64,000 nt of DNA from Pseudaminobacter salicylatoxidans (GTDB lineage: Bacteria; Pseudomonadota; Alphaproteobacteria; Rhizobiales; Rhizobiaceae). The DNA lies in contig NZ_QGGG01000008.1 in NCBI RefSeq assembly GCF_003148475.1, positions 62,001-126,000 on the forward strand, given 5' to 3'. Numbering within the stretch: position 1 is the first letter of the stretch; every line of letters starts with the position of its first letter. Below, piece by piece: positions 45,479-63,700 of this stretch. The position numbers were made by a program, and so were the translations under genes. Under the pieces are notes generated by a model. It saw only the letters and a list, made by a program, of their open reading frames with translations. It did not search any database and was not told where the DNA came from.

Positions 45479-45597
45479 CTTTCGCGTCCTTTTACCCGGA
45501 CGTCCTAACCCCCATACGCCGCAGAGCCAAGTGCCTGCACGCATGCCAGCAGAAAGTGGCAGCTCGCGGCGGGCCGTAGCCTGTGATGCGAACAATG

Positions 45598-46293
45598 GTT
45601 GCGGCTGGACCGCGTTTTCTGAACTGCTAAGCTGCCGCCAGCGGCGTCAAGCATATCGCCGGTGTTGCGGCTGGACCGCGTTTTCTGAACTGCTAAGCTC
45701 GCAAGCCTTCCCAGCATCATACCTCTCCGGTTGCGGCTGGACCGCGTTTTCTGAACTGCTAAGCTGCCCGGTTTCACGCAAAGCTCTGCCGCCGAGTTGC
45801 GGCTGGACCGCGTTTTCTGAACTGCTAAGCTACAGCCTGAATGGCATCGCCCACTGTCATCGTTGCGGCTGGACCGCGTTTTCTGAACTGCTAAGCTACT
45901 GGACAAAGGCGGCATGCTTCTTGTGCTGTTGCGGCTGGACCGCGTTTTCTGAACTGCTAAGCTGGACCCTCATGGCGCTCGGTACGCAGAGCGGTTGCGG
46001 CTGGACCGCGTTTTCTGAACTGCTAAGCTTGCTGAAACGATTGGTGACGAGCCCGTACAGTTGCGGCTGGACCGCGTTTTCTGAACTGCTAAGCTGGCGG
46101 GTGAATGCGTCGAGCACCCTTTCCTGTTGCGGCTGGACCGCGTTTTCTGAACTGCTAAGCTTGCGCGCGACATCGAAGAACAGCGTGCCCTGTTGCGGCT
46201 GGACCGCGTTTTCTGAACTGCTAAGCTCAAGCGGCCCGAGTACGAACACCCCGACGAGTTGCGGCTGGACCGCGTTTTCTGAACTGCTAAGCT
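45598..46293 (+). CRISPR. Type II-C CRISPR array, 11 repeats and 10 spacers
   Basis: Eleven copies of one 36-base repeat (beginning GTTGCGGCTGGACCGCG, ending GAACTGCTAAGCT) start every 66 bases at 45598, 45664, 45730, 45796, 45862, 45928, 45994, 46060, 46126, 46192 and 46258. All copies appear identical. The ten spacers are all 30 bases and all different. The crRNA direction is taken as plus because the tracrRNA (plus strand, 51054 on) is complementary to the plus-strand repeat and because repeats of this subtype start GTTG. Because 66 is divisible by three, long open frames cross the array; these are not genes. The 119 bases before the first repeat (45479-45597) show no obvious leader signal. 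Confidence 0.98.
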
Positions 46294-46296
46294 CGG

Positions 46297-46357
46297 TGGC
46301 CGTCGATCTTCCTGATTTCAAAGGGAAAATCGACGGTCACGGCGCAGAAAAAGCGCC
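46297..46357. other. Hairpins between the array end and cas2
   Basis: Just beyond the last repeat, TGGCCGTCGAT (46297-46307) pairs with ATCGACGGTCA (46329-46339) with one G-T pair. GGCGC (46341-46345) pairs with GCGCC (46353-46357) around an A-rich loop. They could end array transcripts coming from the left or cas transcripts coming from the right; there is no T-run to decide. Confidence 0.5.
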
Positions 46358-46365
46358 TCATGGCC

Positions 46366-46728
46366 CTAGAACAGGGCAAGCTGATCAGGGTTTTTCTTTT
46401 GCCTTCGGCGGGCCTGATCGGAAAAGCGGACGATATTTTCATACTGCCTGTCCGTGAACTGAAAGACATAGATGTCACCCCATTCCGGCAGGTGTGATTC
46501 GATCTTGCGCAGGTAAGTCTCGAACTGCTCCTTGCCACTGCAGAAACGCAGATAGTTGGAAAGCTGGCTCATTTCGAAGCCCATGTCGAGCAGATACTGA
46601 CGGAATTTCGTGGCCGCCTTGCGCTGCTTCTTCGTTTCCACCGGCAGATCGAACGTCACTAAAATCCACATCAGCCTGTATCCACTGAGATGAGCGGGCC
46701 CCATATTTGCTTTGGCTGGCACCGTCAT
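46366..46728 (-). CDS. cas2: CRISPR-associated endonuclease Cas2
   Basis: Cas2 joins Cas1 to form the spacer-integration complex. The 120-residue protein has the ferredoxin-like core with the conserved Asp in 'WILVTFDLPVETKKQRKAATKFRQYLLDMGFEMSQLSNYLRFC' (D27) and 'GDIYVFQFTDRQYENI'. The ATG at 46728 overlaps the cas1 stop (ATGA). A start at 46704 (MGPAHLSGYRLMW) is also possible. It is the last cas gene before the array. Confidence 0.95.
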   Translation of the reverse strand: MTVPAKANMGPAHLSGYRLMWILVTFDLPVETKKQRKAATKFRQYLLDMGFEMSQLSNYLRFCSGKEQFETYLRKIESHLPEWGDIYVFQFTDRQYENIVRFSDQARRRQKKNPDQLALF

Positions 46729-47663
46729 GGCGCCGGTGCCCCAAGTCCCAGAAGGGCAAGCGGCGGCGGCATGCCAGGCAGTTCCAGCACGGCCTGCCGG
46801 GTTTCGAAGCTCAGGGCCAAAGAATGCACGAAGCGCTGAACCTGCACCGAAAGTGGCGAAAGCCCGACCGGCGTCTCCAGGTCGAACGTCGTCAGCGATG
46901 TCAGCGCGCGCTTGGCTTCCGGGGTCACGGTTTCGACCCCCTGCTTCATCAGGTTGAGCACGATCTGGTCCACCAGCGGCCGGTACGGCTCCATGAGGTC
47001 GTCAGCCAGCGCAAAGGCATTGGCGCGATTGGAGTGGAATATACCCGGCGTCGGATGCAGTCCGGCCGCGCAGATCGCACGCGAGAGCGTGGCCCGCAGG
47101 ACAGTATAGCCATAGTTAAGCAGCGCATTCGCGCCATCGGCATCGGTGTCGCGTTGAAACTCCTTGCCGAACAGCGTCTTCCAATAGCGCCGCGCCGCCT
47201 GCGCTTCCAGATTGTCGGGATCGCCCGAGCGCACCTTGCGCGCCAGAAGGTCGAAGCCGCCGCCTTCGGCACCATTTGCCGTCAGCACATACCCCTGCAT
47301 GCGGATTTTCGCGGCGATGACAACCTGCCAGAGCCGTTTCTTCAGCGGTCGCGACGCCTCCAGTTGCGCCCGCATGCGCGCGCCCTGAGCATGATGGCCT
47401 TGCAGCGGCCAAATGCAGGAAACCGGCGCGTGGTTCGAGCCACACAAAACCACCGGAACATTGCGCTCCGCCAACCGCGTGAACACGGTATTGCTCCATG
47501 TCGTGCCATGGGCATGCACGATCAAGGCGCCGATATCGTCCAGGGCAACACGGCCCTTTTCCTCACCACTATCGCTGATGGTGAGAAAACCGCGATGGAC
47601 GGCCAGATACAGACCGTCTGTCGCTATATCGACGACACGCTCCATGCGCCAAGTCTGGCGCAC
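46725..47663 (-). CDS. cas1: CRISPR-associated integrase Cas1
   Basis: Cas1 is the metal-dependent integrase that inserts new spacers. In the 312-residue product the predicted metal ligands are present: E153 ('NLEAQAARRYWKTLFG'), H210 ('GIFHSNRANAFALADDLMEPYRPLVD') and the acidic D221/D222/E225 cluster. The length is typical for type II. The frame can start at a GTG (47663) or the ATG at 47645 (MERVVDIATDGLYL); neither has a clear ribosome site, and coupling to cas9 16-34 bases upstream is likely. Confidence 0.96.
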   Translation of the reverse strand: MRQTWRMERVVDIATDGLYLAVHRGFLTISDSGEEKGRVALDDIGALIVHAHGTTWSNTVFTRLAERNVPVVLCGSNHAPVSCIWPLQGHHAQGARMRAQLEASRPLKKRLWQVVIAAKIRMQGYVLTANGAEGGGFDLLARKVRSGDPDNLEAQAARRYWKTLFGKEFQRDTDADGANALLNYGYTVLRATLSRAICAAGLHPTPGIFHSNRANAFALADDLMEPYRPLVDQIVLNLMKQGVETVTPEAKRALTSLTTFDLETPVGLSPLSVQVQRFVHSLALSFETRQAVLELPGMPPPLALLGLGAPAP

Positions 47664-47678
47664 GGAGGTAAAACAATC

Positions 47679-50600
47679 CTAAATTGCAATTGTTTTCAAT
47701 TTTTGGTTGCTGGTCATGCGGCTTTCCCGATCACGCGGCCCGGGATCGTAAACCCTGCCGGTTTCATCGATGCGGATCTGCCGCGCCTTTATCTCACGCA
47801 GGCCATTTGCCGTTTTGGAGAAATATTTGAAGGGGTCGTCCCGGTTGGCATCACGCGCCTTGAGACTGCCGCCCTCATTGTTCCGGGCAAAGACAATCTG
47901 ACCCGAACTGGCGAATTTCACCACCCGCGCAATCGTGTAGCCATCGCTCGGATGCTCATAGGCCACCATATCGTTCTGCTGCAGGCTCAGCACCTTGCGC
48001 GCGGTTGGATTTGCCTTGCGCACCGGCGATTCCCACCCCTTCTGATGCGCATCGAACATGGAGATGACTTCGGCCTGCCACTTGCCATCCTTCATTTCCC
48101 ATACATCGTAGCGATAGTTGGCGTCGCCTTTGTAGCCCTTGTAGACATTGCCGTCCTTGTCGCGGATTGGGATCACCGCCAGCGTTTCGGTGACACGTAC
48201 CCGGCGGATGCCCCGATATTTCGGATCGTTGCGCGCAAAATCGAGCAGCGCCTGCTGCAATTCCTTTCCCGAAAGCCCGCCGGCCGCCGAATAGAGCCGC
48301 GCGCGCAGTTCGTCGTCACGGATCGCGGGAATGTCCTTGTCGGTCAGCGAAAGCAGCATCTTGCGACGCACCACGATGGTGTTGCCTCTGGCATCCACTT
48401 CGCCGGTCAGGCCATAAGCGGTGTCGTTGTGCAGCTTGCCTGCCGTCTGCCACTTGCCTTTGTCATCAAGCCCAACGGTGCCGTGGTCGGGCTTGTGGCT
48501 GACGACGATGTTGTCGAGCGCCTGCTGCAGATCATCCCGGAAGTGCTCCCACGGCACCGGAATGCCCTTGACCACATCTTCCAGTTCCTGCTCCTCGCGC
48601 CGCGCGGCCTCCGTGGAAATTCTCTGCAGCATCGAACGCGTGGTGACGCCGACAACCGCCGCGTCAATGGCATGGTGGCGATGGTCATTGCGATTTTTCG
48701 CATCGCTGTAGTTGTGATCGGGCAGCAGGGTGTTGAGCCCCCAGTGGCGACGCAGCATTTCCGTCATGCGGCCGGGAATGACACGCACCCGCCACTGCTC
48801 GTGTTTCTCGGGATAGAGCGAGCAAAGATATTCGCGCGCCAGCCGCGACAGATATTGCGTGTCCGTGAGCTGCCGGTCGAGAAAGCCGCTATCGGCGTCG
48901 AAATCCGCCATGGCGTCGCGCGCAAAGCGCCAGCGCTTGGGCTTGGGCAGGCGGTTGGCGCGCTCGAGAATCTCATCGTAGTGATTGGCCCATTCCGTCA
49001 CTTCGGAAGGCGCGCGGTTGCGCTTCACGCGGTTGGCTTCCTTGAGGCACAGCAGCTTATTACCCTGCCCGTCATCCAGCGTGCGGGAATAGGGCAGGAT
49101 GTGATCGACATCCACCGCACCGGAAAACAGCATGGAAATGCTGATCGGCTTGCCGGTATAGATGCAGCAGCGATCCTCCGGCTTTGCCGGATTGAGCTCT
49201 TCCCAGAGCTTCAGCAACAAGCGGTTGTAGCCATTGTCGACGAGAGCCGGAGTATCTTTCCGGAGTTCCGCGATTTTTTCCGAACGCTGCCGCGCCGCGC
49301 GCGTGTTTTCGCCGATACGGCGATTGATCTCCACCTTTTTCTTCTCGCTTGTCTTCAGATCGCGCGCCAGTTCGACTGCGATTTCGGCCGGCTTGCCGAA
49401 ACGCCTGATCAGCCCGTTGACCAGTCTTTGCAGCTGGTTGAGCCCGATATGGACTGTGGGGTTTGTGATGCGGCCTTTCCGGACATCGTATTCGTCTTCC
49501 AGATCGCCTGTGCCCGGGGGAATGCTGCGGGCAACAACCTCCTGATATTTCGGCAGTTCATCGAAAATTTCACCGGTACCGAAATAGGAATGGTTGTAGC
49601 CGGCGCGCTCGGCCGCCTTAGCCTCGGGAATGACATCCGCCCTGAGTTCCTCCAACATGGTCGACAAGGCGGTGTGACCGAGCCGGCCGTAGCCTTCCGG
49701 CAGATGGCAGGCGGCCACGGCCTCGGCCGCATCGTCGGACAGGCCATGCGTTTCCACCAGCCACTGGTGAAGGACAAACGGGTTTTCCTCCTCCTGGATA
49801 CGCTCGATCACCTTCCATTGGCTATCCATGGAGAGCGTGTTCCAGCGCGGCCCGAAAAGCCCCTTGGCCGAAAGCGCCGCAGTAACCTCGTCGCCGGCCA
49901 TATCCACGCGGTTTTCGCTTTCCTTGTTGAAGCGCATGTCCGGCGTCAGCTTCAGGTCCTTGCGCAACGTCTTATATTTCGCCGTCTTCGCGCCACGCAG
50001 TTTTAACACCAGCGCATCGCGTTCATCCAACGTCAGCTTGCGTTGGGAAAGGTCCGGCGCCACGACCTCCAGTTCATTCACTTCCTTGTAGAGCCTGAAG
50101 GCCTGGAACAGCGGATGCGCCTTGGCCAGACGCTGTTCGAGCGGGTTGAAGGTGCAACTGCCGATGCGCGGCTTCTTCAGCGGACGCTGATGGAAGATCA
50201 CCTTGAACAGATGCTCGCCGCGCGCCTCGGTGAGAACATCAGGATAGTGCACCGCCTGCGCGTCCCAGATGTGCCGGAACTCTTCCTCGAGCAGGCTGCG
50301 GACGGGATAGAAATCATAACCATCGTCGAGAATGACGCTGCTGCCCGCACGCAGGCGCACATGCAGCCCCTGGGCGCGGCGCGATGCCAGAAACACACCG
50401 AGCGTTTCGGCCTTCGCCTCGCGAATGGCGTCGCGCAGGCGGTCTATGCCAATGGCTATCTTGCCCTTGTCGTTGTCACGCCGATCGGTCTTGCGGTTGG
50501 ACTTGAAACCGCGACGCTGGCCCAGATGAAACAGCGCGCGTCCGATGTGGTGAAGCGGCAACTTCTCCGTGAGCGCGCGGGCACGCAGGTTGAGCGGGTC

Positions 50601-50939
50601 GTTGGCGGGTGCATTTCTGTCGGCGCTGTCGGCCGTCTCGCGCAGCAGCCGTTCACGCTCGTCCTTCCCGCCCGGCATGAGGCCGTATTCGGCAAGCGTT
50701 CGCAGGGTCGCCTTCTGGCGACGCTTGGTCCGGTCGCGCCGGCGTGCGGCTGCCTTGGCCTCACGGCGGGCAACGGCCAGCGAGGTCTTCGATTGCGGAT
50801 CGCGCCCGTCGGAATAAATGCGCACCCCGGCATCGGCAATGGCCACGGGATGACCTGCGGCGCTAAGCCGAAAGACACACCAGCCAATGGAATTGGTGCC
50901 CATGTCAAATGCGTAAGAAACTGGCTGCCTGAAAGGCAT
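47679..50939 (-). CDS. cas9: CRISPR-associated endonuclease Cas9, type II-C
   Basis: Cas9 is the RNA-guided DNA nuclease of the system. The chosen ATG (MPFRQPVSYAFDMGTNSIGW) follows GGGGAGGGG, giving 1086 residues, the compact II-C size. RuvC-I has D12 ('AFDMGTNSIGW'). An Arg-rich bridge helix lies at about residues 57-82. RuvC-II has E523 ('IAVELARDLK'), and the HNH nuclease has H613 ('VDHILPYSRTLDDGQGNKLL'). RuvC-III has H755/H756 and D759 ('DHRHHAIDAAVVG'). The C-terminal ~200 residues form the PAM-interacting region. All catalytic residues are present, so it should be active. cas1 and cas2 follow; there is no csn2 or cas4. The open frame could be read from a TTG 30 bases earlier. Confidence 0.98.
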   Translation of the reverse strand: MPFRQPVSYAFDMGTNSIGWCVFRLSAAGHPVAIADAGVRIYSDGRDPQSKTSLAVARREAKAAARRRDRTKRRQKATLRTLAEYGLMPGGKDERERLLRETADSADRNAPANDPLNLRARALTEKLPLHHIGRALFHLGQRRGFKSNRKTDRRDNDKGKIAIGIDRLRDAIREAKAETLGVFLASRRAQGLHVRLRAGSSVILDDGYDFYPVRSLLEEEFRHIWDAQAVHYPDVLTEARGEHLFKVIFHQRPLKKPRIGSCTFNPLEQRLAKAHPLFQAFRLYKEVNELEVVAPDLSQRKLTLDERDALVLKLRGAKTAKYKTLRKDLKLTPDMRFNKESENRVDMAGDEVTAALSAKGLFGPRWNTLSMDSQWKVIERIQEEENPFVLHQWLVETHGLSDDAAEAVAACHLPEGYGRLGHTALSTMLEELRADVIPEAKAAERAGYNHSYFGTGEIFDELPKYQEVVARSIPPGTGDLEDEYDVRKGRITNPTVHIGLNQLQRLVNGLIRRFGKPAEIAVELARDLKTSEKKKVEINRRIGENTRAARQRSEKIAELRKDTPALVDNGYNRLLLKLWEELNPAKPEDRCCIYTGKPISISMLFSGAVDVDHILPYSRTLDDGQGNKLLCLKEANRVKRNRAPSEVTEWANHYDEILERANRLPKPKRWRFARDAMADFDADSGFLDRQLTDTQYLSRLAREYLCSLYPEKHEQWRVRVIPGRMTEMLRRHWGLNTLLPDHNYSDAKNRNDHRHHAIDAAVVGVTTRSMLQRISTEAARREEQELEDVVKGIPVPWEHFRDDLQQALDNIVVSHKPDHGTVGLDDKGKWQTAGKLHNDTAYGLTGEVDARGNTIVVRRKMLLSLTDKDIPAIRDDELRARLYSAAGGLSGKELQQALLDFARNDPKYRGIRRVRVTETLAVIPIRDKDGNVYKGYKGDANYRYDVWEMKDGKWQAEVISMFDAHQKGWESPVRKANPTARKVLSLQQNDMVAYEHPSDGYTIARVVKFASSGQIVFARNNEGGSLKARDANRDDPFKYFSKTANGLREIKARQIRIDETGRVYDPGPRDRESRMTSNQKLKTIAI

Positions 50940-51053
50940 AACCACCCCTCCCCTAGTAACTTCCCCCAATAATCACCTATCACCTCACCCCAAAAACTCC
51001 AATAGAAGCGTGCTTGACAAAGCAGAGTTACTGTGGAACTTTCATATATGTAA

Positions 51054-51132
51054 CAGTTCAGAAAACGCGGTCTGGCCGTTAACAAGCTAAGACAGCACCA
51101 GATAAGGCGCTCGCTCCGGCGGGCGCTTTTTT
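51054..51132 (+). ncRNA. tracrRNA
   Basis: On the plus strand, divergent from cas9, bases 51054-51072 (CAGTTCAGAAAACGCGGTC) are a perfect 19-nt complement of the CRISPR repeat. After a bulge (TGG) complementarity continues with CCG and TTAAC. The tail ends in a terminator stem, GCGCTCGC (51107-51114) with GCGGGCGC (51119-51126, one G-T pair), loop TCCG, then TTTTTTCTTTT. A TTGACA at 51014-51019 could be the -35; an AT-rich stretch (TTCATATAT) at 51041-51049 could supply the -10, though spacing is long. The true 5' end is likely between 51046 and 51054. Confidence 0.9.
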
Positions 51133-51343
51133 CTTTTGAGGTGACGCCTCGGCGATCATCTCCTGAACGCGTCGCTCCCGACCGGACCGCTGTGGCCGAC
51201 GCAACGTCGCACTCCGCAAGATCGGACCAACGTCATCCTTACCCGAAATCAGTCATTGATGACCGTCGACGCATCGGCTATGAAGCGCAGGATCGGTCGG
51301 CCAGTTGCCCGATTGCGCGGAAGTTTCTCCATATTTCCGCGAG

Positions 51344-51414
<71 letters not shown>

Positions 51415-51420
<6 letters not shown>

Positions 51421-51621
51421 AATACCGCCGATTACCCTCTGTTGCCGCCGATAGCCGCCGAAACTACGCCCGCGCAAAGAGCGTGAGACGGCCCTTGCGC
51501 GAAAAAGCGTAGAAACGGCGGTGTTTGGCGGTGGAAAAGTTCGAATCGTTTCCGGTTGATTGGTCGATTTTGACCCTGCGCAGACGTGGTTTATGGATCA
51601 CTAAACGACCGCTATGCGCCC
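51415..51621 (+). repeat. Left direct repeat of the island (att-containing)
   Basis: The 207 bases start at GCGCCA, the tRNA 3' end, and run to CGCTATGCGCCC. They match 60421-60626 at roughly nine of ten positions, with long identical blocks such as GAAACTACGCCCGC, GTAGAAACGGCGGTGTTTGG and GGTCGATTTTGACCCTGCG. The first part repeats the phrase CCGCCGA three times. No convincing protein is encoded. The last 100 bases before the NTPase stop (51622-51721) show nothing recognisable. Confidence 0.88.
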
Positions 51622-51721
51622 CCAATTCGGCCGTTGAGCAGAACCTAGCAGCTTCCCAAAACCAGCCATTCGGTCGAACAAATTGCGCAGCTCACGCTCT
51701 GCCAGCCGGACGCCCCAAACA

Positions 51722-54700
51722 TCAATGGTCTCGTCGCGAAGCTTTCTTCGCGTGCCAGAATCTAAGAGTCCCGTCATCCCGTCTGAGTCCAATAAGGATA
51801 AGCTTTACTCCGTTTGTAGCATCATAGTCGCGTGATGATCTGTATTTCCAAAGCTTCAGTTTGAAAACGAGTTGCTTCTCCACGGCGGACAGCATCGAAG
51901 CAAGCCAATCGGCCGAAGCCCATAGAATTTCACCATCGTTATTGTGGCGATATCTGGTGTCGTCGGGATTGGGACTCCAACTCCCCCAGACTTGGCTGCG
52001 CAGAGCGAGACTTCCATCGGCCGTGCACCAATCACCGCCGTTTGGTTCATTGACTAACTTGAGGCGTTTGGTGAGGTTGATTCCAAGACGAGGTCTCCCG
52101 GCGGGACCTTTCGCGGCGATTTCGTCGCCGATGTCGATGCCGAGACCGTGGGTCTCGGGTGCCCACACCAAGGGAGCGAAGGGGCTCTTTTCGCGATAGC
52201 GCTGATCATAGTAGCCCTCGTCCCAGAACTCCGGGAGCAAGAGGTCATGGCTGGGTTGCCTGGCGAGTGCGGTGCAGCGGCCTACAGCGCCCTTTCGCTC
52301 CGTCAGTGCCGACACGATACTCACCGAGACGCCGTCCGGCGATGACCAGCGCCCGTACAGCGGAAACTGCGCATCGTCCGGGGTGTCCCGGAAGCCTAGC
52401 TTACGCAAAACCGTTTGCTGATCCTGCAGCGTTTCCTGTTGGCCAATCCTATTGCCCAGCAGGTCTTCCTTTGCCTGTTGGGGGATCGGGTCCTTCCAGT
52501 CCGATAGCCATAAGCCGTCATCAAATGTAACGTCATAGCGATCGCGCCATTCCGTCCAGGGCGAGAGCTCTTCGGTTTCATAGCTGCGAACGACCACAGG
52601 TAGCTTCTTTGAAAGGCTCGTGGCAGCACTGAGCAGCGCGTGCCGTTGAACGTGTTCACGGAAGAATTCATATCGATCGTCGCGGTCCCATTGGTACCGG
52701 TCGCGGCCGGGGAAGCTGTCCAGGGAGGTTGCCTCCGGCCATAGGCGCACGATCTCGGCCGCAATGGCGTCTTCCGCCGTTGCCTTCGCGACATTGAACA
52801 GCCGGGCCAAGTTGTCGATTTCTGTTTTTGTGAACTCGTAGCCGAATCGAAAACCTGACGTGGGTTTTCCCGCGGGCGGGTGGGTGTCGTCGGTGACGAT
52901 TCCCTTCTGCGGCTTATCGATCTCATCCTGCAACGCGTCCAGCGCAGCGCCATGCTCTCGCTCGCTGCTGATGTGCCGCAAACAACGGACAAGGTGGACT
53001 TTATGTATGAGGTGCAGGTCGCTTCTTTGAGAAAGAGCCAACAACTTGGGCCAAAGCGGCCGCATCATTTGTCCGTGGCGCAACGCGGTCCGCGCCAGCC
53101 CCATCAGCAACCACTGCTGGGAGTTCTGAAACGGCAGCTTCCGATCCGGTGATGCCAGTGTTGCGACTTCTCTTCTGTCGAAGCGATCAAGCAGCAGGCC
53201 GAGATCGTTGACGAGCCCCAACTCGGCAAGTGTTCTCAGCCCCCTTGCAGCCGTCCAGCGGACATATGCGTCGTCATCGCCGAGGAGATGCCAAATCACG
53301 TCGGCAACGAAGTCATCCTCGTTCCCTGCAACTGCTTGTTCAGGACGAAAGGCGCCTTCTCCGATCTCGTCAGCTATGCGGGATGCAGGCCCGGACAGCA
53401 GTAACTCCAGCGCTTCTAACCCGGCCTGGCCCGACGTTACGTCGGTCAGCGCCGTTGCCAGTTGAAGCCACTCATCACTTCCGAAATCGACCTCATCCGC
53501 CACGACCTTGTTTAGAACGAGCTCCAATGCAAAGAGATTGTCGCCGCACAAATCCGACAGCTGGCGGACGCCGCGCGCGACATTGGAGAACTGGCCTTCG
53601 AGAAATTCCGAGGCCTTGTTCGCGAACAGTCGTCCAACCAGCGACTTTGCGTTTGAGACGAGATGCGCGGTGGAACCGCTCCAGACGCGAAAACAGTCGG
53701 TGAGGATTTCAAGGGACTGCGTGTAATTCAACTCGGTCGCGTCGCAGATCGCGAACAAAAATGCCAAACGCTTCGCGTATGGACACGCATCCCGCAACTC
53801 GGCGTAAAAGCGCCGCCGAGCATCGTAGGAAAATTGTATCTTCTCATCGATGGCCTTCAGCGCACTGTCGATCGAACTTGCCGACGACAGATCGCAGTTC
53901 TCGACCAACGCTGAGATGAAGTAGCTCATATCCTCTTTGGTCGATTTTGGGGTCTGCTCGGTCAGGATATCGGGTGAGGAGTTGTTCCGACTGTTATACG
54001 CATCCTGCTTGCGCTTGGCCTCGATCCTGAGCTGTTCGATCGCCTCTCGCTCCTCGGTCGTGATGGCGTTCGGATACTGATTGGCGGTCTCTAGGTAACT
54101 TTCCCAGAGCGAGGGCCAGGCGGCGTCCGGGTGTTCGGAGCGTAGTTTCGAGATGATCGCCTGAAAAATGCGCCTCTGATCCGCTGGTACGGACAATTTC
54201 AGTAAATCGGCGACCGCGTCTCCGGAGCGCCAGTCCCACCAGCCGTGATCTTCACAGATCGTAAGGACAAAGGCGGCGCGGCGTGGATCGAGATTGCCGT
54301 TTTCGGCTAGAAAGCATGCAAGCTGCGGCAAGCCGTAAGATAGCTTCGCTACATCCTGATCGTGCCATCGCACCAACTTAGTGATTGCCGGAAAACCTAT
54401 TGAGTTGGCAGCGGCGCGAGCGAACAATGTCCATCCGAACTTGCTTGGCTCGCCAGCCGCAATGATCTGGCAAAGATTCATCAGCCGCTGCGCTAGTGCG
54501 GGTTTCAGAAAGCCGCCTTTCTGAACCGCTGCAAAATGAAGCAGCGAGTAGATTTCCTCGTAGCTCTCTCCGCCCATTTGGTCCAACTGGGCCAAGCCTT
54601 GTCGATAGTATTCACGGGCCTCTTCAACGCCCATGGGCACAAGGGAAGCCGCAAGGTCGGCGTAGGAATCTCCACGCTGACCGATATTGTCATCCTGACG

Positions 54701-57700
54701 GATTTGCTCCACAACATGCTGCGCGAATTCCCCGGCAAGCTCATGAAGCTCTGGGCGCAAAGCCAGCCGAGCCAATAGATCGATTTTCTGCGCAGGAAAG
54801 AACCGCCCAGCGGAAACCAGATCGATCAGGACCTTGGCTTGGGCTGCCGATAGTGTCGGCGAATGGTTTAGCAGGATGCGAACGCAACCAAGCCCGATGG
54901 TGCGGGCAAGCACATCAGCTGCACTTTCCGCATTCCAGTGTATGCCAACGCGCAAGTGTTTGCGCCACACGTCGAGAAAGGTATCGACGCTCGTACCGGA
55001 GATACCCTTGCGCGACAGCACGGCTTCCTCAATCGGCGAGATCAACTCACGGGCAAGCTCGATAGCTTCGCTGATATCCTCCCGTTCTCGCTCACTAAAC
55101 CGCGCCCTCTGCTGCTTCTTGCGACTTTTCTCGGCCGAAACGGCGGGGGCGGCTTGGCGTAGCTCTTTGAGAAAAGCCACCAGTCCTCTTTTGTCATTAA
55201 CAGCCTTAGCCTGCCTGGTAATCTTCACGTCGTTCGGAAGCAGGTCATGACAGGCGAGCGGTCTTCCGGCCGACCATGCGCGAACACAAGCGCGAAGAAT
55301 TGGGGGCCAAACTCTCGAAGGGCCATAGCGTTCGCCGTAGTCGTAGGCGGAAGGACGGGTTGTTGGCGCACGGCGGATGATCGTTCTGGCAGCGCTTCGG
55401 GAACCATAGAAAAGCGTTGTCAGCGCCGCTTGCACGAGATCGCCGCTGTTCTCTCGCTCAGACCTGATTGAAAAGCCTTCATCTTCGCGGTCTTCGACGA
55501 AAACGTGAGATCCGATCGCTCTGGCGAGTGCCTTGACTTGCTTTCTGCCGAGATAGCGGGGGCGTGTTAGAAGCCGGAGCTTGAGCGCCTTGGACGTGCC
55601 TTTGTCGCTTGCGGCAAACGAGACAAAATTCGCGAGTATCGCCGTGCCGTTTGCCCTGTCGAAAAGCTCTAGAAGCTGCAGAAGCTTGTCGCTTGCTGAC
55701 AGCGAAAAGCCATCGTTCCAGCGAGCGAGGTTGCGGTCAGCGATGCCGAACTCCCCTTCGGTCACATGTTGGAACAGCACAGCCGCGTAGTCGTCGATCT
55801 CCGGCCCGGCGGGAGCGCCACGCGTCTCATCAGGTGGCTGCGCAATGTGCCAGTTGATCCAGCGAATCGTGCTTTCGCATTGAATTCCGGCTTCTTCGCT
55901 GTCACCCGCAAAGCGATGCGCAATTGTCAGCCTTGCACTTCTGGCACCGCGCCATCCGGAGCGATCTGCGAAGAGGCGGCGATAGGAATCGGCGTCACCA
56001 AGCACAACGGCGAGAGCCGGGGCGCCACGAATGAACTCGTCGCCTCGCAAATTCGCCGCGACCGCCTGTGCCAGTCGCATGCTGAGGCCCAGCACGCGGT
56101 CAAAGTCATGCTCCGCGACCGCCAGTCGAAAGGCCGCACGCAGCCGAGCGAGCGTCAGCCTGCGGCGACCGAACTCTGACTGAACTGTCGTCGGAAAACT
56201 GGTTGAATCAGCGAGTGCGAATGCTCTGTCGCTGTCTTTGATGACAACCAGAAAGTGCGGCAGCGCTTCGGCGGCATAGGCCGATGTACCCTGCGAAGAA
56301 AGAAGCCGGTCGGCAATGGCCCGTTGAGCTTCTGGTTTGCCGGAATAGGTCTCCCTCACATATGTTTCCGTGGGTTCGTCTCTGAAGATCGCGCCATGCG
56401 AAGTGATCTCGAGCATTGGAGCCAAATCCGATGCTGCGGTGTTGACCTGAGCCACAGACCACCCCAACGCGTTAGCCAGTTCGGCGAGCGGAATAGGGGG
56501 AGGTAGAAGTGAAAGTGCCACGAAGAACTCGGCTACCTCTGAATCCGGCCACCCGGCAACATGAAGGTCCGAGACAATCTTGTTACAACTTTCGGCGATA
56601 ATTTCGGGGACAGTGATGGGCGCAGCAGACGTCTCGCCGAGTACGTTTGTATCCCAGGTCTGAACCAGATAATCGAGGACACGCGCATTCCGACCGGAGC
56701 GGGTCAAGGCAGTGGCTATTTCTACACTGGAAGCGTGTGGCACGCGGGTCTTCAGAAATTCGCGGGCTTCCACATCGGTGAACGGCCCCAACTCGACTTC
56801 TTCCACCGTAGTGCGTCCGATGACGTTCTCTTTGCGATGCGTGCGGGCTGTAAGCAGCAACTTCACACCTTCGATCGGGTCTTCGTCGATGGTCGAGAGA
56901 AGAAGCTTCGGGAATGCCTCTTCGTGGCGGTAGTCAGCTTCAAGCTGGGCGTTATCGGCAGCATCGATGATGATGAGCAATCCGAGCCTGCTCGATTGGG
57001 TTCGGATTGCTGTCGCCGCTTGCGCCAGTCGTTTCCGTGCAGCTTTGATGATCCTGCGACTGTCATCCCCGCCTGGCAGCAGCGGATCGCAGAGGGTTCG
57101 TGACGCCAGTTCGTTGACGATCTGCACCAAGCCAATTCTGGGAAGGTGCCGGGAGTGATTGTCCGAACGGTATGAACCACCTCCGAAGCAATCAAAAACG
57201 ATGACCTCAAATTCGTTGGCCATCCTCGCCGCAAGGCTCTGGACGAACACTGTCTTGCCCACTCCGCCTTCCGCGTGGACGAAAACGGGAAGCGGTGAGG
57301 TCTTGATCAGTTCGCCTGTCGTCGAAAGCTCGGTTCGCCCGACGACAGCGCCCACGTCGATGAAGCGGGTGTCTGCCGGAAACAGGTCCTCCGGTTCACA
57401 ATCGAGCGCGTCTAAAACATCTTCGCGGTGAATAAGGTTCTTGCCCTGACCGCTTGGCCCGGCCTTCTTCAGGACAAGGTCCTGAAGTCCATGTAGCCGG
57501 AGCCGAGCCTCGGAGTCCGTCCCGGCCGACCAGTCGGTGAGTGTCCGCTTGAGTGCGTTATCTTGAGCTGCGAGGCTCTTCTCCCCGGCCCGAAAGACTA
57601 TTCTTGAGAAGAGGCGGCTTGCATCCGACAGGCCGCGCTTCGCGCACCATTTCTTGAGGTTGCGAGCCTGAGTGGCTGCGCCGAGATCTGAAGGCGTCGT

Positions 57701-58177
57701 TCCCTTGATGAGGGACTGGATCGCGTCCCAAAGACTGTCCGCAAATTCCGAGTTCGTGACAAAGAGGAACGATACCTTATCGTCAACGTCGGCCGCAGAC
57801 GACGCAGCCTCATAGCCGACGATTGTGTCAGCGAACTTTTCGATCGTCTTCTTCAGATAGGCGGCTGTGACAGCCTCGTCGCGTATCCTGTATTTGAATT
57901 GAACGGTCTCAAGCCGCTCGCAGCTGTGAAAATTGTCTCCATGGCCGTAATAGAGGACAAGATCGGCGACTTCCTCGCCGCTTGTGCCTGGGCTTGCAGT
58001 CTCGGTCGACGAGATTCCCTCTACGGCGATCGCAAACAGACCGTCATTCGGGAAAACCAACTGTAAGGCTCTCCGAGCAGCCCATCTCTCGTGGAAGGTA
58101 TGGCCTGCGCGCGATGCCCGGACGGTATCAATGTTCCCCGCAATATTTTGCACTATTTCAATTACGTCCTTTGCCAC
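51722..58177 (-). CDS. Giant (2151-residue) STAND-type NTPase with N-terminal Cap4-like nuclease domain; candidate defence protein
   Basis: The N-terminal ~200 residues look like the Cap4/dsDUF4297 nuclease family: 'HTFHERWAARRALQLVF', then E53, D72 ('EEVADLVLYY') and Q93-F-K95 ('TVQFKYR'), a PD-(D/E)XK arrangement. A P-loop ATPase follows, with Walker A 'EGGVGKT' (303-309) and Walker B 'LGLLIIIDAAD' (398-408). Winged-helix-like and helical parts come next ('IPLAELANALGWSVAQVNTAASDLAPMLEITSHGAIFRDEP'). The remaining ~1500 residues are mainly helical repeats, with a HEAT-like unit ('DDDAYVRWTAARGLRTLAELGL') near residue 1640. This is the layout of Avs-type antiviral STAND proteins (effector, ATPase, sensor), but larger. 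The start is GTG; HEPN and nuclease-like genes lie upstream in the same operon. Confidence 0.85.
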   Translation of the reverse strand: MAKDVIEIVQNIAGNIDTVRASRAGHTFHERWAARRALQLVFPNDGLFAIAVEGISSTETASPGTSGEEVADLVLYYGHGDNFHSCERLETVQFKYRIRDEAVTAAYLKKTIEKFADTIVGYEAASSAADVDDKVSFLFVTNSEFADSLWDAIQSLIKGTTPSDLGAATQARNLKKWCAKRGLSDASRLFSRIVFRAGEKSLAAQDNALKRTLTDWSAGTDSEARLRLHGLQDLVLKKAGPSGQGKNLIHREDVLDALDCEPEDLFPADTRFIDVGAVVGRTELSTTGELIKTSPLPVFVHAEGGVGKTVFVQSLAARMANEFEVIVFDCFGGGSYRSDNHSRHLPRIGLVQIVNELASRTLCDPLLPGGDDSRRIIKAARKRLAQAATAIRTQSSRLGLLIIIDAADNAQLEADYRHEEAFPKLLLSTIDEDPIEGVKLLLTARTHRKENVIGRTTVEEVELGPFTDVEAREFLKTRVPHASSVEIATALTRSGRNARVLDYLVQTWDTNVLGETSAAPITVPEIIAESCNKIVSDLHVAGWPDSEVAEFFVALSLLPPPIPLAELANALGWSVAQVNTAASDLAPMLEITSHGAIFRDEPTETYVRETYSGKPEAQRAIADRLLSSQGTSAYAAEALPHFLVVIKDSDRAFALADSTSFPTTVQSEFGRRRLTLARLRAAFRLAVAEHDFDRVLGLSMRLAQAVAANLRGDEFIRGAPALAVVLGDADSYRRLFADRSGWRGARSARLTIAHRFAGDSEEAGIQCESTIRWINWHIAQPPDETRGAPAGPEIDDYAAVLFQHVTEGEFGIADRNLARWNDGFSLSASDKLLQLLELFDRANGTAILANFVSFAASDKGTSKALKLRLLTRPRYLGRKQVKALARAIGSHVFVEDREDEGFSIRSERENSGDLVQAALTTLFYGSRSAARTIIRRAPTTRPSAYDYGERYGPSRVWPPILRACVRAWSAGRPLACHDLLPNDVKITRQAKAVNDKRGLVAFLKELRQAAPAVSAEKSRKKQQRARFSEREREDISEAIELARELISPIEEAVLSRKGISGTSVDTFLDVWRKHLRVGIHWNAESAADVLARTIGLGCVRILLNHSPTLSAAQAKVLIDLVSAGRFFPAQKIDLLARLALRPELHELAGEFAQHVVEQIRQDDNIGQRGDSYADLAASLVPMGVEEAREYYRQGLAQLDQMGGESYEEIYSLLHFAAVQKGGFLKPALAQRLMNLCQIIAAGEPSKFGWTLFARAAANSIGFPAITKLVRWHDQDVAKLSYGLPQLACFLAENGNLDPRRAAFVLTICEDHGWWDWRSGDAVADLLKLSVPADQRRIFQAIISKLRSEHPDAAWPSLWESYLETANQYPNAITTEEREAIEQLRIEAKRKQDAYNSRNNSSPDILTEQTPKSTKEDMSYFISALVENCDLSSASSIDSALKAIDEKIQFSYDARRRFYAELRDACPYAKRLAFLFAICDATELNYTQSLEILTDCFRVWSGSTAHLVSNAKSLVGRLFANKASEFLEGQFSNVARGVRQLSDLCGDNLFALELVLNKVVADEVDFGSDEWLQLATALTDVTSGQAGLEALELLLSGPASRIADEIGEGAFRPEQAVAGNEDDFVADVIWHLLGDDDAYVRWTAARGLRTLAELGLVNDLGLLLDRFDRREVATLASPDRKLPFQNSQQWLLMGLARTALRHGQMMRPLWPKLLALSQRSDLHLIHKVHLVRCLRHISSEREHGAALDALQDEIDKPQKGIVTDDTHPPAGKPTSGFRFGYEFTKTEIDNLARLFNVAKATAEDAIAAEIVRLWPEATSLDSFPGRDRYQWDRDDRYEFFREHVQRHALLSAATSLSKKLPVVVRSYETEELSPWTEWRDRYDVTFDDGLWLSDWKDPIPQQAKEDLLGNRIGQQETLQDQQTVLRKLGFRDTPDDAQFPLYGRWSSPDGVSVSIVSALTERKGAVGRCTALARQPSHDLLLPEFWDEGYYDQRYREKSPFAPLVWAPETHGLGIDIGDEIAAKGPAGRPRLGINLTKRLKLVNEPNGGDWCTADGSLALRSQVWGSWSPNPDDTRYRHNNDGEILWASADWLASMLSAVEKQLVFKLKLWKYRSSRDYDATNGVKLILIGLRRDDGTLRFWHAKKASRRDH

Positions 58178-58204
58178 CGAACCAGTCTGTTGGAGGCCTC
58201 GCCA

Positions 58205-58672
58205 TCAGTAATAACCGGTATAGTCGGCCTGCATCCCGCCGAACTCGGCCAGTTCTCCGAGCACGGTGATACAAAGCGGCAGCAACAGCCGTATTCGTTC
58301 GGGATCGTCCCAATAGGCACTTCCGTGCTTGCCGCCGTGGAACAGGTTGTTGCGCACCGTCTTTAGCAGTAATGTGACGCGGTCGAGCTGCGAGGCGCTG
58401 TCCGTGAAAGTCACCTCGGTGAACGTCAGCCCGGCATCGCCAACGATTTGCTTCTGCGGGTTGGCGACGACGAGCCGTCCGGCGGCATTGGACGGAACAT
58501 AGTCGCCGCCATACGCTTCGACGAAACCCTTCCAGTCCGCCAGCGCCGTTGCATTAACCGTTTTCGACTGGAGCCAGTTATTCTCTTTTAGGGCAGACTC
58601 GAACCGAGAAAACCAGAAGAAGAAGTCGCAAATCAGCGGCCACAGATCTTCCTCCACCTCTTCGTGGCGCAT
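58205..58672 (-). CDS. HEPN-domain protein (candidate RNase or toxin)
   Basis: The 155-residue helical protein carries R107-N-N-L-F-H112 in 'LLLKTVRNNLFHGGKHG'. This is the Rx4-6H motif of HEPN ribonucleases, preceded by a helix ('DSASQLDRVTLLLKTVRNNLFHGG') and followed by a C-terminal helix ('RIRLLLPLCITVLGELAEF'). The N-terminus ('EDLWPLICDFFFWFSRFESALKE') is typical of MAE_28990/pEK499-like HEPN proteins. GGGAG lies 7 bases before the ATG. It ends 27 bases before the giant NTPase, strongly suggesting co-transcription. Cleavage of RNA on activation is inference from the motif. Confidence 0.8.
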   Translation of the reverse strand: MRHEEVEEDLWPLICDFFFWFSRFESALKENNWLQSKTVNATALADWKGFVEAYGGDYVPSNAAGRLVVANPQKQIVGDAGLTFTEVTFTDSASQLDRVTLLLKTVRNNLFHGGKHGSAYWDDPERIRLLLPLCITVLGELAEFGGMQADYTGYY

Positions 58673-58943
58673 GACGCTCTCCCGAAACTAACCTGCCAGA
58701 CTGTCTGCGCAAATCGGATCATGTTGACGACGGTTGGGACGATTATGCAAGTCCGCAGAGTAAAGCTTCTCGGCGCGATCCGCATGCTGATGACTGAGGC
58801 GCGCAGAGCACGTCTCGCGGTTGCCTTCTGGGTAAACGGTTCCGATCGTCGGGCACGGTCGACGAGGATCAACGCGAGCAGGTTGAAGCGCGGGAGCGTC
58901 CCGTCACCTCGGGACGCCGGTCGATCTTGCCATGCGGTTGCGG

Positions 58944-59897
58944 TTAGTTACTGGCTGACCTCCCCCTTCTACGACGCACAGCGGCGCGGGCCTGCTCAAA
59001 GCTCGGGTGCTCGCGCGTTAGCTGGGTGCTGAGGATGACCCTCGGCCGTTGTAGAGTGGCTCGGTCTTTGTCGGTCACCTCGCCGGCAATTGCTCGGCGA
59101 ATGCTGTCGGGAAGTTCCCCTGACGAACGGACCTGGAAATCAGGGTCGGCGGCACGGGCGGCCACGCCGCGGCTCAGATTGATGCGCTCGGCGATTAGGT
59201 CCGGATGGAAGGCGATTGACAGATAGCTAAGCTCCCCGAACCCGCTAGGCAGGAGGAACTCGGTTGTGGGGCCCACTGGCGGTGACGGCGGCGAAGGCAG
59301 GTCAACCACCGGCCAGCACAGAAGATCTGACAGCGACATGAAGCCCGCCCGCCATCGGCTGACCTTTTTTTCCTTCCGCTTGCACCCACCGGCGACGATA
59401 CCGACGACATCGCGCGCAAGCCTAATGTTGATGCCTTCGATCGCCGGGAGGGCTCCTACCGGACGCTGCAGAGCCGACTGAGGATGATAGAACATGTAGA
59501 GCGGAAGCGTGGCCATGCCATCGGGCGATGCCGCAGCATGGTTCACCAGCGTCTGACTCTGACTACCTTTCGGTGTGCCATGATCGAGATGATCATAATA
59601 CCAGTAGCTTGAGCCATTCTTTAGCCTCTGCTCCTTACAGCGCTTCGATTGGATCATCAGGCGCAGGTAGCTGCCGCCCCCAACCTCATGCGGTGCTGCA
59701 TAGATCCAGTCCATGTCCGCGCCCGTGACCTTCTCATCCGGGAAGTCGACGCGGACGCCGAGCGGCTGGAGTGGCATGAGACCCATCATCAGCAGATCGG
59801 TCGCGGTCTCCTCGCGGAAGTTGCGGGTAAGACGACGGTTGCGCTCAAGGAGCTGAGCAAGGTCACGCGGAAAGCGGTTGGCAAACTCACAGAGCAT
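58944..59897 (-). CDS. PD-(D/E)XK-like nuclease protein (DUF6615-like)
   Basis: The 317-residue protein starts 'MLCEFANRFPRDLAQLLERNRRLTRNFREETATDLLMMGLMPLQPLGVRVDFPDEKVTGADMDWIY'. E30, D61/D63 and Q83-S-K85 ('LMIQSKR') have the order and spacing of a PD-(D/E)XK nuclease core. From memory the sequence resembles the uncharacterised family DUF6615. A Pro-rich linker ('PSPPSPPVGPT', about residue 205) separates a second domain, and the C-terminus is Arg-rich. GGGAAGGG lies 10 bases before the ATG. It lies 271 bases upstream of the HEPN gene on the same strand (58673-58943 holds no convincing gene), probably as the first gene of the defence operon. Nuclease activity is untested. Confidence 0.75.
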   Translation of the reverse strand: MLCEFANRFPRDLAQLLERNRRLTRNFREETATDLLMMGLMPLQPLGVRVDFPDEKVTGADMDWIYAAPHEVGGGSYLRLMIQSKRCKEQRLKNGSSYWYYDHLDHGTPKGSQSQTLVNHAAASPDGMATLPLYMFYHPQSALQRPVGALPAIEGINIRLARDVVGIVAGGCKRKEKKVSRWRAGFMSLSDLLCWPVVDLPSPPSPPVGPTTEFLLPSGFGELSYLSIAFHPDLIAERINLSRGVAARAADPDFQVRSSGELPDSIRRAIAGEVTDKDRATLQRPRVILSTQLTREHPSFEQARAAVRRRRGRSASN

Positions 59898-60420
59898 CAG
59901 TCGCTAACCCTTCCCACCGAGCGCAATTGGCTACACCCAAAATCGTATCTGATGCGGATTGGCAAGATGGGGAAATAGACCGACTAGCTCAAACTGGATA
60001 TCTCCTTGCCAGTTCTCGGATGTACTGCACCGTAGTAGCCCGCTTTCCTGTCCGCGCGCAAATGACTCTGCCGAGCAGCTAACGCCCTCGGTCCTGCCGT
60101 TTGGCGAGACTGAATGAACGGCAGGTTTTGGGTGGTGTTGGAAGAACACCGAACGACGACAATGGGTCGACGTTGCCGAACGGCGGCTTCCTGAGTTTTT
60201 CTGCCAGAACCGGACAGGCAGCAGCCGGCCCCAAATCCGCCGATCATAAATCTTCGGCCGTGGTAGCGCCGTCGTCGACAGATTGAGGCAATGGCTCGAA
60301 ATGTCACCAACCCGCTGATTAGATAAAACACTTCTTATTCCAATATGTTATCCGCAGAAACACTACTGGAATTTAGAGGGCTATAGCGTAGATGTAACTG
60401 TCATCTTCACCCGGTACAGC
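59898..60420. other. 523-base noncoding stretch upstream of the island operon
   Basis: This region should contain the minus-strand operon promoter. I find no convincing protein-coding frame or RNA gene. An AT-rich stretch lies at 60321-60366. Several short open frames on both strands lack ribosome sites and family resemblance. It ends at the second direct repeat. Confidence 0.5.
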
Positions 60421-60626
60421 GCGCCAAATACCGCCGATTGCCCTCTGTTGCCGCCGATAACCGGCGAAACTACGCCCGCACAAAGAGCATCAGACGGTCC
60501 TTGCGCGAAAAGGCGTAGAAACGGCGGTGTTTGGTGGTGAAAAAGTTCGAATCGCTTCCGGTCGATTGGTCGATTTTGACCCTGCGCAGACTTGTTTATG
60601 GTGCATTAAACGACCGCTATGCGCCC
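60421..60626 (+). repeat. Right direct repeat of the island, start of a second insert
   Basis: These 206 bases match 51415-51621, beginning GCGCCAAATACCGCCGATT and ending CGACCGCTATGCGCCC, with about 18 differences. The tRNA itself is not duplicated; only its last six bases are. The following 171 bases (60627-60797) hold no recognised gene and presumably the promoter of the next ATPase gene. Confidence 0.88.
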
Positions 60627-60797
60627 TCATCCTAGTCGTTCAAGTCCAATAGATCGTTCCCCGTAAGTTGCCGTTGGGCTTTGGCTGCACGAATGACGCC
60701 AATTGACTTCGGGGAAATATGGGCGATTGGGCCTATCAATGAAAAGATTTGGCCCGTACGTATTTGACCAGAATCGAGGGTTTGGTTACGCGTCGGC

Positions 60798-63700
60798 ATG
60801 TTTGAGATCACGGGCAATGATATCGCTCTTCTGAATGACAAAGATCTCAGAGATCTTGTCGCTCTTCTTTGCGAAGCGGAATTGCGTCACCGCGGCCTGC
60901 CTGCGTCGGCCGTGACCTGGGGCGGCAACCAGACTGCCCCCGACGGCGGCCTCGATGTCCGCGTTTCTCTCCCCGCCGGAACGCCGATCGACGGGTTCGT
61001 ACCGCGCGCCGCTACGGGCTTTCAGGTGAAGAAGCCCGACATGCCGCGCAGCGAAATTCTCGCAGAAATGCGCCCTACGGGAACGGTTCGGTTCGTCATT
61101 CAGGAGCTGGCGGCGCAAGCCGGCGCCTACATTATTGTCAGCGCAACCGGATCGACTGCGGACGGAGCGCTCGCCAATCGGCGGAAGGCGATGGCGGATG
61201 CGGTCGAGGACATCGCACAACGGGATGAGCTCGTCCTCGATTTCTATGATCGCGGGCGCGTCGCGACATGGGTACGCGGTCATCCGGGCCTCATCCCATG
61301 GGTCCGCACTCGCATCGGCAAATCCATGTCGGCGTGGCAACCCTATGGGCAGTGGGCGCAGACGCCTGCCGGCAGCGACGATAGCTACCTTGTCGATGAC
61401 GCATTGCGTATCCAGACTAGCAGCGCTGAGAATGGCGATGGCGTCGACGCGCTCACCGGCCTTGAGAGAATCCGCGATCTTCTGGGCCAACCTGGTAAAG
61501 TCGTGCGTTTGGTCGGACTTTCAGGCGTCGGGAAGACCCGCTTTGTCCAGGCGCTTTTCGATCCGGCCATCGGTGCGCGAAGCCTCGATCCGTCGCGTGC
61601 CGTCTATGCCGACATGGCGGACACGCCTGATCCGCAGCCGATCGCGCTTGCCAGCAATCTGGTCGCCCAACGCATGCGTGCAATCCTGGTTATCGACAAT
61701 TGCCCGCAGGAACTGCACCGGCGACTTTCGGAACTCGTCCGCGCCGCCGGCAGCACGGTCAGCGTCATCACCATCGAATACGACATCCGGGATGACGAAC
61801 CCGAGGGCACGGATGTCTTCACGCTGGAGCCGTCATCGCCCAACCTCGTCGAGAAACTGGTCAGCCGGCGCTTTCCATCGCTCTCCGACGTCGATGCGCA
61901 GACAATAGCCGAATTCTCAGGCGGGAACGCGCGGATCGCCCTGGCGCTCGGGGCAACCGTCGGCAAGAATGAATCGCTTGCCGGACTGACAGACGACGGA
62001 CTTTTCCGGCGCCTGTTTCAGCAGCGACACGAGCATGACAGCGGGTTGCTGCTCGTAGCGCAAGCGTGCGCGCTGGTCTTCTCCTTCGACGGCGAAACTG
62101 TCACTGGCGACGAGTCCGAGATCGCCCGTCTGGGTGGCATGGTTGGTAAGACTGGCGCCGAGATCTTCGCCGGCGTTGCCGAGCTTCGCCGCCGTGACCT
62201 TGTACAGCAACGCGGACTATGGCGGGCCGTGCTGCCGCACGCCATAGCAAACCGCCTCGCCGCCATGGCGCTTCAGAACATCCCTTGGGCAACCATTGAA
62301 ACCCAGCTCGTCAACGGCGCCTCGGAACGGCTGATAAGATCATTCTCGCGGCGCCTCGGCTACCTTCACGGCAGCAAGGAAGCGGTCGCGATCGTTGAAC
62401 GCTGGCTTGGACCCGGCGGCTATGTCGCCGATATCGCCAACCTGAACGCGTTCGGGCGGGCGATCCTGGAAAACATCGCGCCAGTGGCGCCGGCGGCCGC
62501 CCTCGATGCGATCGAGCGCGCCGCTCGCGGGCCTGACAGCGAGGCGATGCGAGAGAACGGGCGGCATCTCCTGCGCCTCCTGCGCTCGCTTGCGTATGAT
62601 GCCGAATTCTTTGATCGGACGGTCGCCCTCTTGGCAAGCTTCGCTCCGGCGGTCGATGACGTGCACGACGAAGCGGCCGACGCCACAGAATCCCTGTTCT
62701 ACCTCTATCTCTCCGGCACGCATGCCAGCATCGACCAGCGCCTGCGCGCGGTCGAAACCTGGTTGCGTTCGGGCGATCCGGCCGAGCGCGCACTCGGCAT
62801 TCGGGCGCTGGGCGCCATGTTCGAGGCCTATCACTTCACGTCCTCCTACAATTTCGATTTTGGTGCGCGTCCGCGCAATCACGGCTACCATCCGCGAACG
62901 GATGCCGAAGTGCATCATTGGTTCGAGTCCGCGCTGAATCTCGCCGGAACGCTCGTAATCGCAGGCCATCCTGCAGCCTCGGCCCTCCGCACCCTGATAG
63001 CGGAAAGGTTCCGCGGGCTATGGTCATCCGCCGGCGCGTTAGACGCGCTCGAAAGGACGGCCAAGGCCATTGCGACCGACGGCTTCTGGCGCGAGGGGTG
63101 GATCGCCGTACGTCAGACCCAAAAGTTTGACGGCTCGGCCAGGTCCGCAGAGATCGCCGCGCGCCTGGACGCCCTCGAGAAGATTCTGCGCCCAGCCAAT
63201 CTCGTCCAGAACGTGCTGGCCATCGTCATGAACCGTAGGGGGATTGGTGCCCTTGACCTTGATGACATCTTTGGTCCCGACGACGACATCGAAGCTGAAA
63301 GCGCACGCACGGAGCGGATCATTTTCCAGCTTGGCGAGGAGCTGGCACACGACGTGGATGCTTTTGCCATCTTGCTCCCCGAACTCGTCAGCGCCGAAGG
63401 GCAGTTGTGGTTTCTGGGGCGCGGTATGGCCAATGCCGCGCCTGATCGCGCCGTTCTATGGGACGTGCTTGTCGATGAGTTGGCGAAGACACCGGAAACC
63501 AACCAGAATGTTCAGTTGCTGCGTGGAATTCTGAACAGGGTTGCGGAACTGGATGCTGCCGCAGTCGATGAGCTTCTCGATGCGGCTTTGCTGCACGACA
63601 CATTGGCACCGTGGTTTCCGATCCTGCAATCTGCCGTGCCGATCAAATCGCGAGAAATGGCACGTCTCGGCCAATCGCTCACGAGCAATATGGCGCCGAT

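Follow-up and report, generated by a model that had tools for sequence, protein, structure and literature searches.

We find that three adjacent minus-strand genes of Pseudaminobacter salicylatoxidans (RefSeq assembly GCF_003148475.1, contig NZ_QGGG01000008.1, positions 62,001 to 126,000; this whole 64,000-nt stretch is referred to as the window) appear to be co-residents of a single mobile element and not a new three-part defence system, as the initial annotation had proposed. The reading we favour, with good confidence, is that the largest gene encodes an Avs3-like NLR (NOD-like receptor) acting alone, with the other two genes, for a small HEPN-type protein and a DUF6615 protein, as separable co-cargo on a 9.0-kb unit. 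The features of this unit are listed below; coordinates are positions in the window, and those given as G000:C8 refer to the contig of the organism's own genome.

51344..51420, plus strand: tRNA-Arg (CCG), probably the site at which the island integrates (ARAGORN; Rfam tRNA, 71.6 bits)
51415..51624, plus strand: R1, the left direct repeat of about 210 bp, beginning in the final bases of the tRNA gene (repeat search)
51722..58177, minus strand: Avs3-like giant protein, 2151 aa, GTG start (PADLOC Avs3a; NCBIfam NF041816; PDB 8dgc_A; NACHT)
58205..58672, minus strand: small HEPN-type protein, 155 aa, R107-N-N-L-F-H112-G-G-K (phrog_19013; motif; AlphaFold2)
58944..59897, minus strand: DUF6615 protein, 317 aa, putative PD-(D/E)XK nuclease by motif (Pfam PF20320)
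60421..60629, plus strand: R2, the right direct repeat of about 210 bp, with 91% identity to R1; it doubles as the left boundary of the next unit

All three minus-strand open reading frames (ORFs) claimed by the initial annotation are present, and the residues it had singled out are all found and conserved in alignments of the three proteins, a conservation that on these alignments is not due to chance. Its proposal of one operon is more uncertain. The HEPN gene lies upstream of the Avs3-like gene on the same strand with a gap of 27 bp, but the DUF6615 gene is separated from the HEPN gene by 271 bp (58673-58943). A simple promoter scan of positions 51000-61000 returned three sites against 3.2 expected by chance, and hence neither favours nor disfavours an operon.

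The Avs3-like giant protein

The N-terminal part of the giant is a predicted Cap4/PD-(D/E)XK-type nuclease (D72, Q93-x-K95), joined to a STAND/NACHT ATPase with Walker A at residues 304-309 and Walker B at about 400-409 (Pfam NACHT match, 1.4e-7). PADLOC assigns the protein to Avs3a (1.9e-162, best stretch 17-991). It also matches NCBIfam NF041816 (7.4e-188), but its 626.9 bits fall short of the cut-off of 2800 bits that NCBI uses for its Avs3a equivalog. Among sequences of solved structures, the sole match at E 0.01 is SeAvs3 (8dgc_A), which aligns in two stretches (19-990 and 1144-2126) with an E-value of 7.9e-96, or 1.3e-138 with a three-sequence profile. D72, Q93-x-K95, K308 and the Walker B residue D405 are conserved in all 13 proteins of an Avs-like alignment that takes in the window giant and two annotated Avs3a proteins. 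For the C-terminal half, the alignment to SeAvs3 and sub-threshold Pfam HEAT matches (E 0.08) suggest helical repeats. The combination of Cap4-like nuclease, STAND ATPase and sensor in the initial annotation was thus correct, and the protein can now be given a name: its sequence marks it as a distant homologue, along its full length, of SeAvs3 (AVAST type 3), with the nuclease and P-loop residues retained.

Avs3 is said, from the work of Gao et al. in 2022, to sense the large terminase and to oligomerise. By homology to SeAvs3, the C-terminal part of the giant would recognise some conserved protein of the phage, the large terminase subunit being the likeliest, after which the STAND ATPase would oligomerise and the N-terminal Cap4-type nuclease would cut DNA. 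Phage production would then be stopped by killing or halting the cell. The giant most likely works without Avs3b, HEPN or DUF6615, and the two small genes of the unit may each have a defence or toxin-like role of their own. For Avs1-4, the nuclease activity is described as cleaving both phage and host genomes once a phage protein, such as the large terminase or the portal, has been recognised (PMC12931631).

Distribution of the three gene families

When the genome collection was scanned with an alignment of three clade members, 31 loci came up, with best segments 46-85% identical. Together with the window, a locus in genome G256 (L017, 61%) and three plasmid loci (L100, L101, L102), these form a clade of 36 distinct loci; L018 is the same place as L029 and was dropped from the count. 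More distant Avs-like loci (L104, 32% identical over part of the query; L019, L020, L103, L105 and L106, 20-28%) stand outside the clade count and were still searched for HEPN, DUF6615 and Avs3b. Going by organism names, we take the clade to span alpha-, beta- and gammaproteobacteria as well as a Desulfuromusa. At 20 of the 36 loci the gene is a single open frame, 1900 aa or longer (at L051 barely so, and in two pieces). The flanks searched reach at least 5 kb on both sides at 21/36 loci and at least 1.5 kb on both sides at 28/36, making the absence of a neighbour firm at many clade loci, though not at all of them.

The complete trio occurs at one of the 36 clade loci, the window itself. HEPN is found at two, the window and L017; in L017 it follows Avs on the same strand, 299 bp downstream. 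DUF6615 is likewise found at two, the window and a plasmid of Rhizobium leguminosarum Vaf10 (L101), where it begins 103 bp past the Avs stop codon in convergent orientation; in the similar R. leguminosarum plasmid L102, ABC-transporter genes of the same kind come after Avs, and DUF6615 is missing. At the remaining 33 of 36 loci, neither gene is present in the searched flanks. Given the 20 long open frames and the 33 loci without either partner, the Avs gene is often kept intact without HEPN or DUF6615. The reverse search gave a matching picture: none of 41 HEPN loci elsewhere has Avs or DUF6615 in the searched flanks, and none of four other DUF6615 loci (L008, L009, L067, L068) has HEPN or Avs. 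The 41 HEPN loci include look-alikes (L003/L007, L071/L073/L074, L081-L083/L095 and L085-L087), and L098 was left out of this neighbour scan.

Whole genomes and plasmids were compared as well. Among 297 genomes of the order, Avs-like proteins occur in five (those of G058 and G206 being of the distant kind), HEPN in six and DUF6615 in five; Avs and DUF6615 share no genome among the 296 that remain when the own genome is excluded. At the level of the class, a search of 289 genomes gave HEPN in the own genome only (E 1e-8). Comparing the plasmid match lists by eye, we saw no record common to HEPN and Avs, and one common to DUF6615 and Avs. Weak DUF6615 matches within Avs loci (L022, E 0.34; L023, 0.16; L026, 0.083; L017, 0.21) and a weak HEPN match inside the L026 Avs protein (E 0.8) were dropped as noise.

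These distributions bear directly on the proposal of one new three-gene system that would combine two DNases with an RNase. The three genes do lie on one strand within a single repeat-flanked unit. However, the co-occurrence check that the initial annotation had suggested revealed no conserved neighbourhood among the three families, with the trio confined to the window, DUF6615 set 271 bp apart there and convergent to Avs in L101 (and missing from the similar L102), and the partners lacking at 4/4 other DUF6615 and 41/41 other HEPN loci. We therefore reject the single system, which we consider highly improbable.

Two side observations concern these same gene families. Insertion sequence (IS) elements break up the Avs gene in both R. 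leguminosarum plasmids (L101 5980-14643; L102 5980-13870). Inspection by eye also showed genes for AbiEii-like nucleotidyltransferases close upstream of Avs (L033, L045) and of HEPN (L063), which are perhaps another recurrent neighbour of the Avs and HEPN families.

Observations weighing against an independent Avs3-like protein

Several observations weigh against the Avs3-like protein acting alone in the way described. At 15 of the 36 clade loci, the available sequence covers less than 5 kb of one flank or of both. Identity between the giant and the two annotated Avs3a proteins is only about 22%, and the trigger of the giant may consequently differ. The most pertinent observations concern HEPN. 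Avs (all Avs-like matches counted) and HEPN share one genome of the 296 (own excluded; Fisher p = 0.066); if only the clade members, in G031 and G256, are counted, the association has p = 0.034, still on one shared genome. The HEPN proteins of the window and G256 are 26% identical, compared with 61% for the neighbouring Avs proteins, and this difference makes two separate arrivals beside one clade possible, hinting at a link.

The observations on HEPN would fit a two-gene variant in which Avs senses the phage and cuts DNA, and a co-transcribed HEPN contributes cleavage of RNA or modulates the response. The 27-bp gap on one strand in the window and the same-family HEPN gene just downstream of Avs in G256 also speak for it. 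Further support comes from the region upstream of Avs. Using approximate Avs starts, 6 of 14 relatives (L024, L031, L032, L041, L048 and L050) each have in common with another of these relatives a block extending at least 45 bp upstream, and in several of them a TATAAT-like box can be seen by eye. The likeness of the window to these relatives ends at most 5 bp from the Avs start codon, and the Avs gene here may depend on the promoter of HEPN. However, other relatives (e.g. L022, L026, L033, L040) also lack the long block, and promoter dependence is hence only a hint. HEPN is moreover present at only 2 of the 36 clade loci, upstream of Avs in one and downstream in the other, all 41 other HEPN loci are without Avs, and the association weakens when every Avs-like match is counted. 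Both HEPN-Avs pairs also lie in tRNA-Arg(CCG) regions, which can gather genes without any functional connection. On balance, we regard the two-gene variant as rather unlikely. A more specific version, in which an Avs3-like sensor has taken up HEPN as an add-on effector more than once, so that one trigger would lead to destruction of both DNA and RNA and the HEPN gene of the window, lying at the position of the upstream block shared by several relatives, drives the sensor, seems to us decidedly doubtful. The HEPN-Avs coupling is nevertheless the only link that still merits a test.

The repeat-flanked island at tRNA-Arg

The initial annotation had called the location of the three genes an island, and this is backed more strongly than it could know by the 210-bp direct repeats that surround the three genes at a tRNA gene. 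The unit between R1 and R2 measures 9.0 kb and is probably mobile. The three genes are its sole assignable ORFs; a 115-aa frame (59984-60331) between the repeats has no Pfam match. A local search, run with seven recombinases over the window and the 16 kb beyond it, revealed no integrase.

The repeat occurs in three copies in the own genome. The third, 75% identical, lies outside the window (G000:C8:130722-130877) and delimits with R2 a unit of about 8.3 kb, in tandem with the 9.0-kb unit. This next unit encodes a 1265-aa protein (from window position 60798 to G000:C8:126595) with a whole-length PADLOC match to PD-Lambda-4_A (1064.8 bits). Both tandem units carry defence genes and are possibly non-autonomous defence cassettes, mobilised in trans by an integrase. 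A terminal inverted repeat is present in the 210-bp repeat; most of 17 copies retain it, and covariation is low.

Related genomes were compared at the same site. G297 and G298, of the same genus, have the left flank and tRNA in common with the window and no match beyond the tRNA over the approximately 10 kb compared, a pattern that fits insertion at the tRNA; G299, also of the genus, matches at the tRNA only. The repeat has matches in 19 of 247 genomes of the family, including the own (E 0.001, some of them short). It directly follows tRNA-Arg in L144, L151 and L153, and in L145 a tyrosine integrase starts 180 bp from it. In G256, a tRNA-Arg(CCG) accompanied by a large serine recombinase is situated about 8 kb away from the Avs and HEPN pair. 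As both pairs are found in tRNA-Arg regions, a shared integration site would be a simple way of bringing the genes together. Genes that read as one three-gene defence system can have a simpler explanation as joint cargo of a single repeat-flanked unit, which calls for caution in naming systems from single loci.

The window also contains a type II CRISPR-Cas locus (45597-50969), by inference probably of subtype II-C, with the following parts:

CRISPR array: about 10.6 units of 66 bp
46366-46728: Cas2
46725-47663: Cas1
47679-50969: Cas9

In the same-genus genome G298, about 0.65 kb stands in place of window positions 45478-51256.

The two small proteins

The small HEPN-type protein matches phrog_19013 of PHROGs (3.8e-15), a family with no assigned function, and has no confident family in Pfam, NCBIfam or PADLOC. 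R107-N-N-L-F-H112-G113 and K115 are invariant, and G114 nearly so, in all 20 aligned sequences including that of the window; R107 and H112 conform to the R-x4-6-H motif of HEPN ribonucleases. An AlphaFold2 model is mostly helical (predicted local distance difference test, pLDDT, 88.5) and places the motif within helix 95-116. The HEPN reading of the initial annotation accordingly stands as far as the motif and a confident helical model carry it, and finds no structural counterpart: a Foldseek search of the model against the PDB gave no match (best E 0.9). The nearest solved sequence, Ec3Ap (PDB 9hxj), is a weak match (E 0.22), and with these two results the assignment relies on motif and model; the protein is a probable RNase.

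Members of the HEPN family occur in 26 plasmid records (E 0.01) and at 29 viral-contig loci, with zero matches in the phage collection. Their presence on small plasmids and prophages beside varied genes is what one would expect of maintenance or moron genes, and it has to be considered whether HEPN, or DUF6615, is a toxin-like addiction gene that stabilises the island and has no defence role. Inspection by eye showed one upstream neighbour kept within some groups of related prophages, but no partner recurring across groups, and no antitoxin is therefore apparent. We find such an addiction role rather unlikely. As a separate observation, also by eye, HEPN members at six loci (L080, L085, L086, L087, L091, L093) sit at one constant spot with similar neighbours; the neighbours are probably tail-region genes of related prophages, and HEPN is placed there in the manner of a moron gene.

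The 317-aa protein belongs to DUF6615 (Pfam PF20320, 1.3e-87; 294.4 bits against a cut-off of 23.8). It shows the PD-(D/E)XK catalytic pattern E...D...(D/E/Q)xK, with E30, D61 and Q83-x-K85 invariant in the five aligned sequences including that of the window, and also present in L098; position 63 is D or E in the five. The nuclease-like character claimed for it thus holds at the level of the motif, while its fold is unconfirmed: the AlphaFold2 model, from an alignment of only two sequences, has a pLDDT of 39.8, leaving the motif as the basis of the assignment, and a profile search of the PDB gave one unrelated match (E 0.17). The protein is a probable DNase. Among viral contigs, a single-sequence scan for DUF6615 gave no confirmed locus and an alignment scan gave one. 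DUF6615 was unmentioned in the literature searched.

Comparison with known systems

The two small proteins can be compared with known families only in part. The phrog_19013 protein resembles the HEPN superfamily in being helical, with an R-x4-H motif in a long helix. It differs from HEPN_Apea and Ec3Ap in that its likeness to them is weak (for HEPN_Apea, E 0.051 in one of nine family members). The 317-aa protein is a member of PF20320 by its Pfam score, in an entry that carries no function.

A separate nuclease gene upstream of an Avs gene is also known from AVAST type 1. However, in that type the upstream nuclease is a proenzyme of the MBL type, whose partner is a protease joined to the defence enzyme (PMC12799240), and the Pfam, PADLOC and NCBIfam scans of the window proteins reported no match of this MBL/protease type.

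The closest known relative is AVAST type 3. The giant is homologous to SeAvs3 (Avs3a, PDB 8dgc) across nuclease, STAND and C-terminal sensor, and is similar in length (2151 vs 2092 aa). Its Cap4-type D...QxK, Walker A and Walker B match those of the two annotated Avs3a proteins, from which it differs in its low overall identity and, for Avs3a as defined by NCBIfam, in its score. Judged by anatomy, the mode of action of the clade should match that of Avs3a. The gene neighbourhood is different. In both annotated avs3a loci examined, avs3b lies downstream and overlaps the 3' end of avs3a, whereas Avs3b is absent from the searched flanks at 36/36 clade loci, by a profile of two annotated Avs3b proteins that matched its two sources only. 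We considered whether the HEPN protein could be an Avs3b and rejected this; the annotated Avs3b proteins have 231 and 257 aa, and the Avs3b profile has no match to HEPN. We found no mention of Avs3b in the literature searched. On sequence grounds the clade is therefore homologous to Avs3a but does not make up a complete locus of AVAST type 3 in its annotated form. With a proteobacterial clade of several classes now placed beside Avs3, and no Avs3b found in it, the role of Avs3b becomes testable by comparison.

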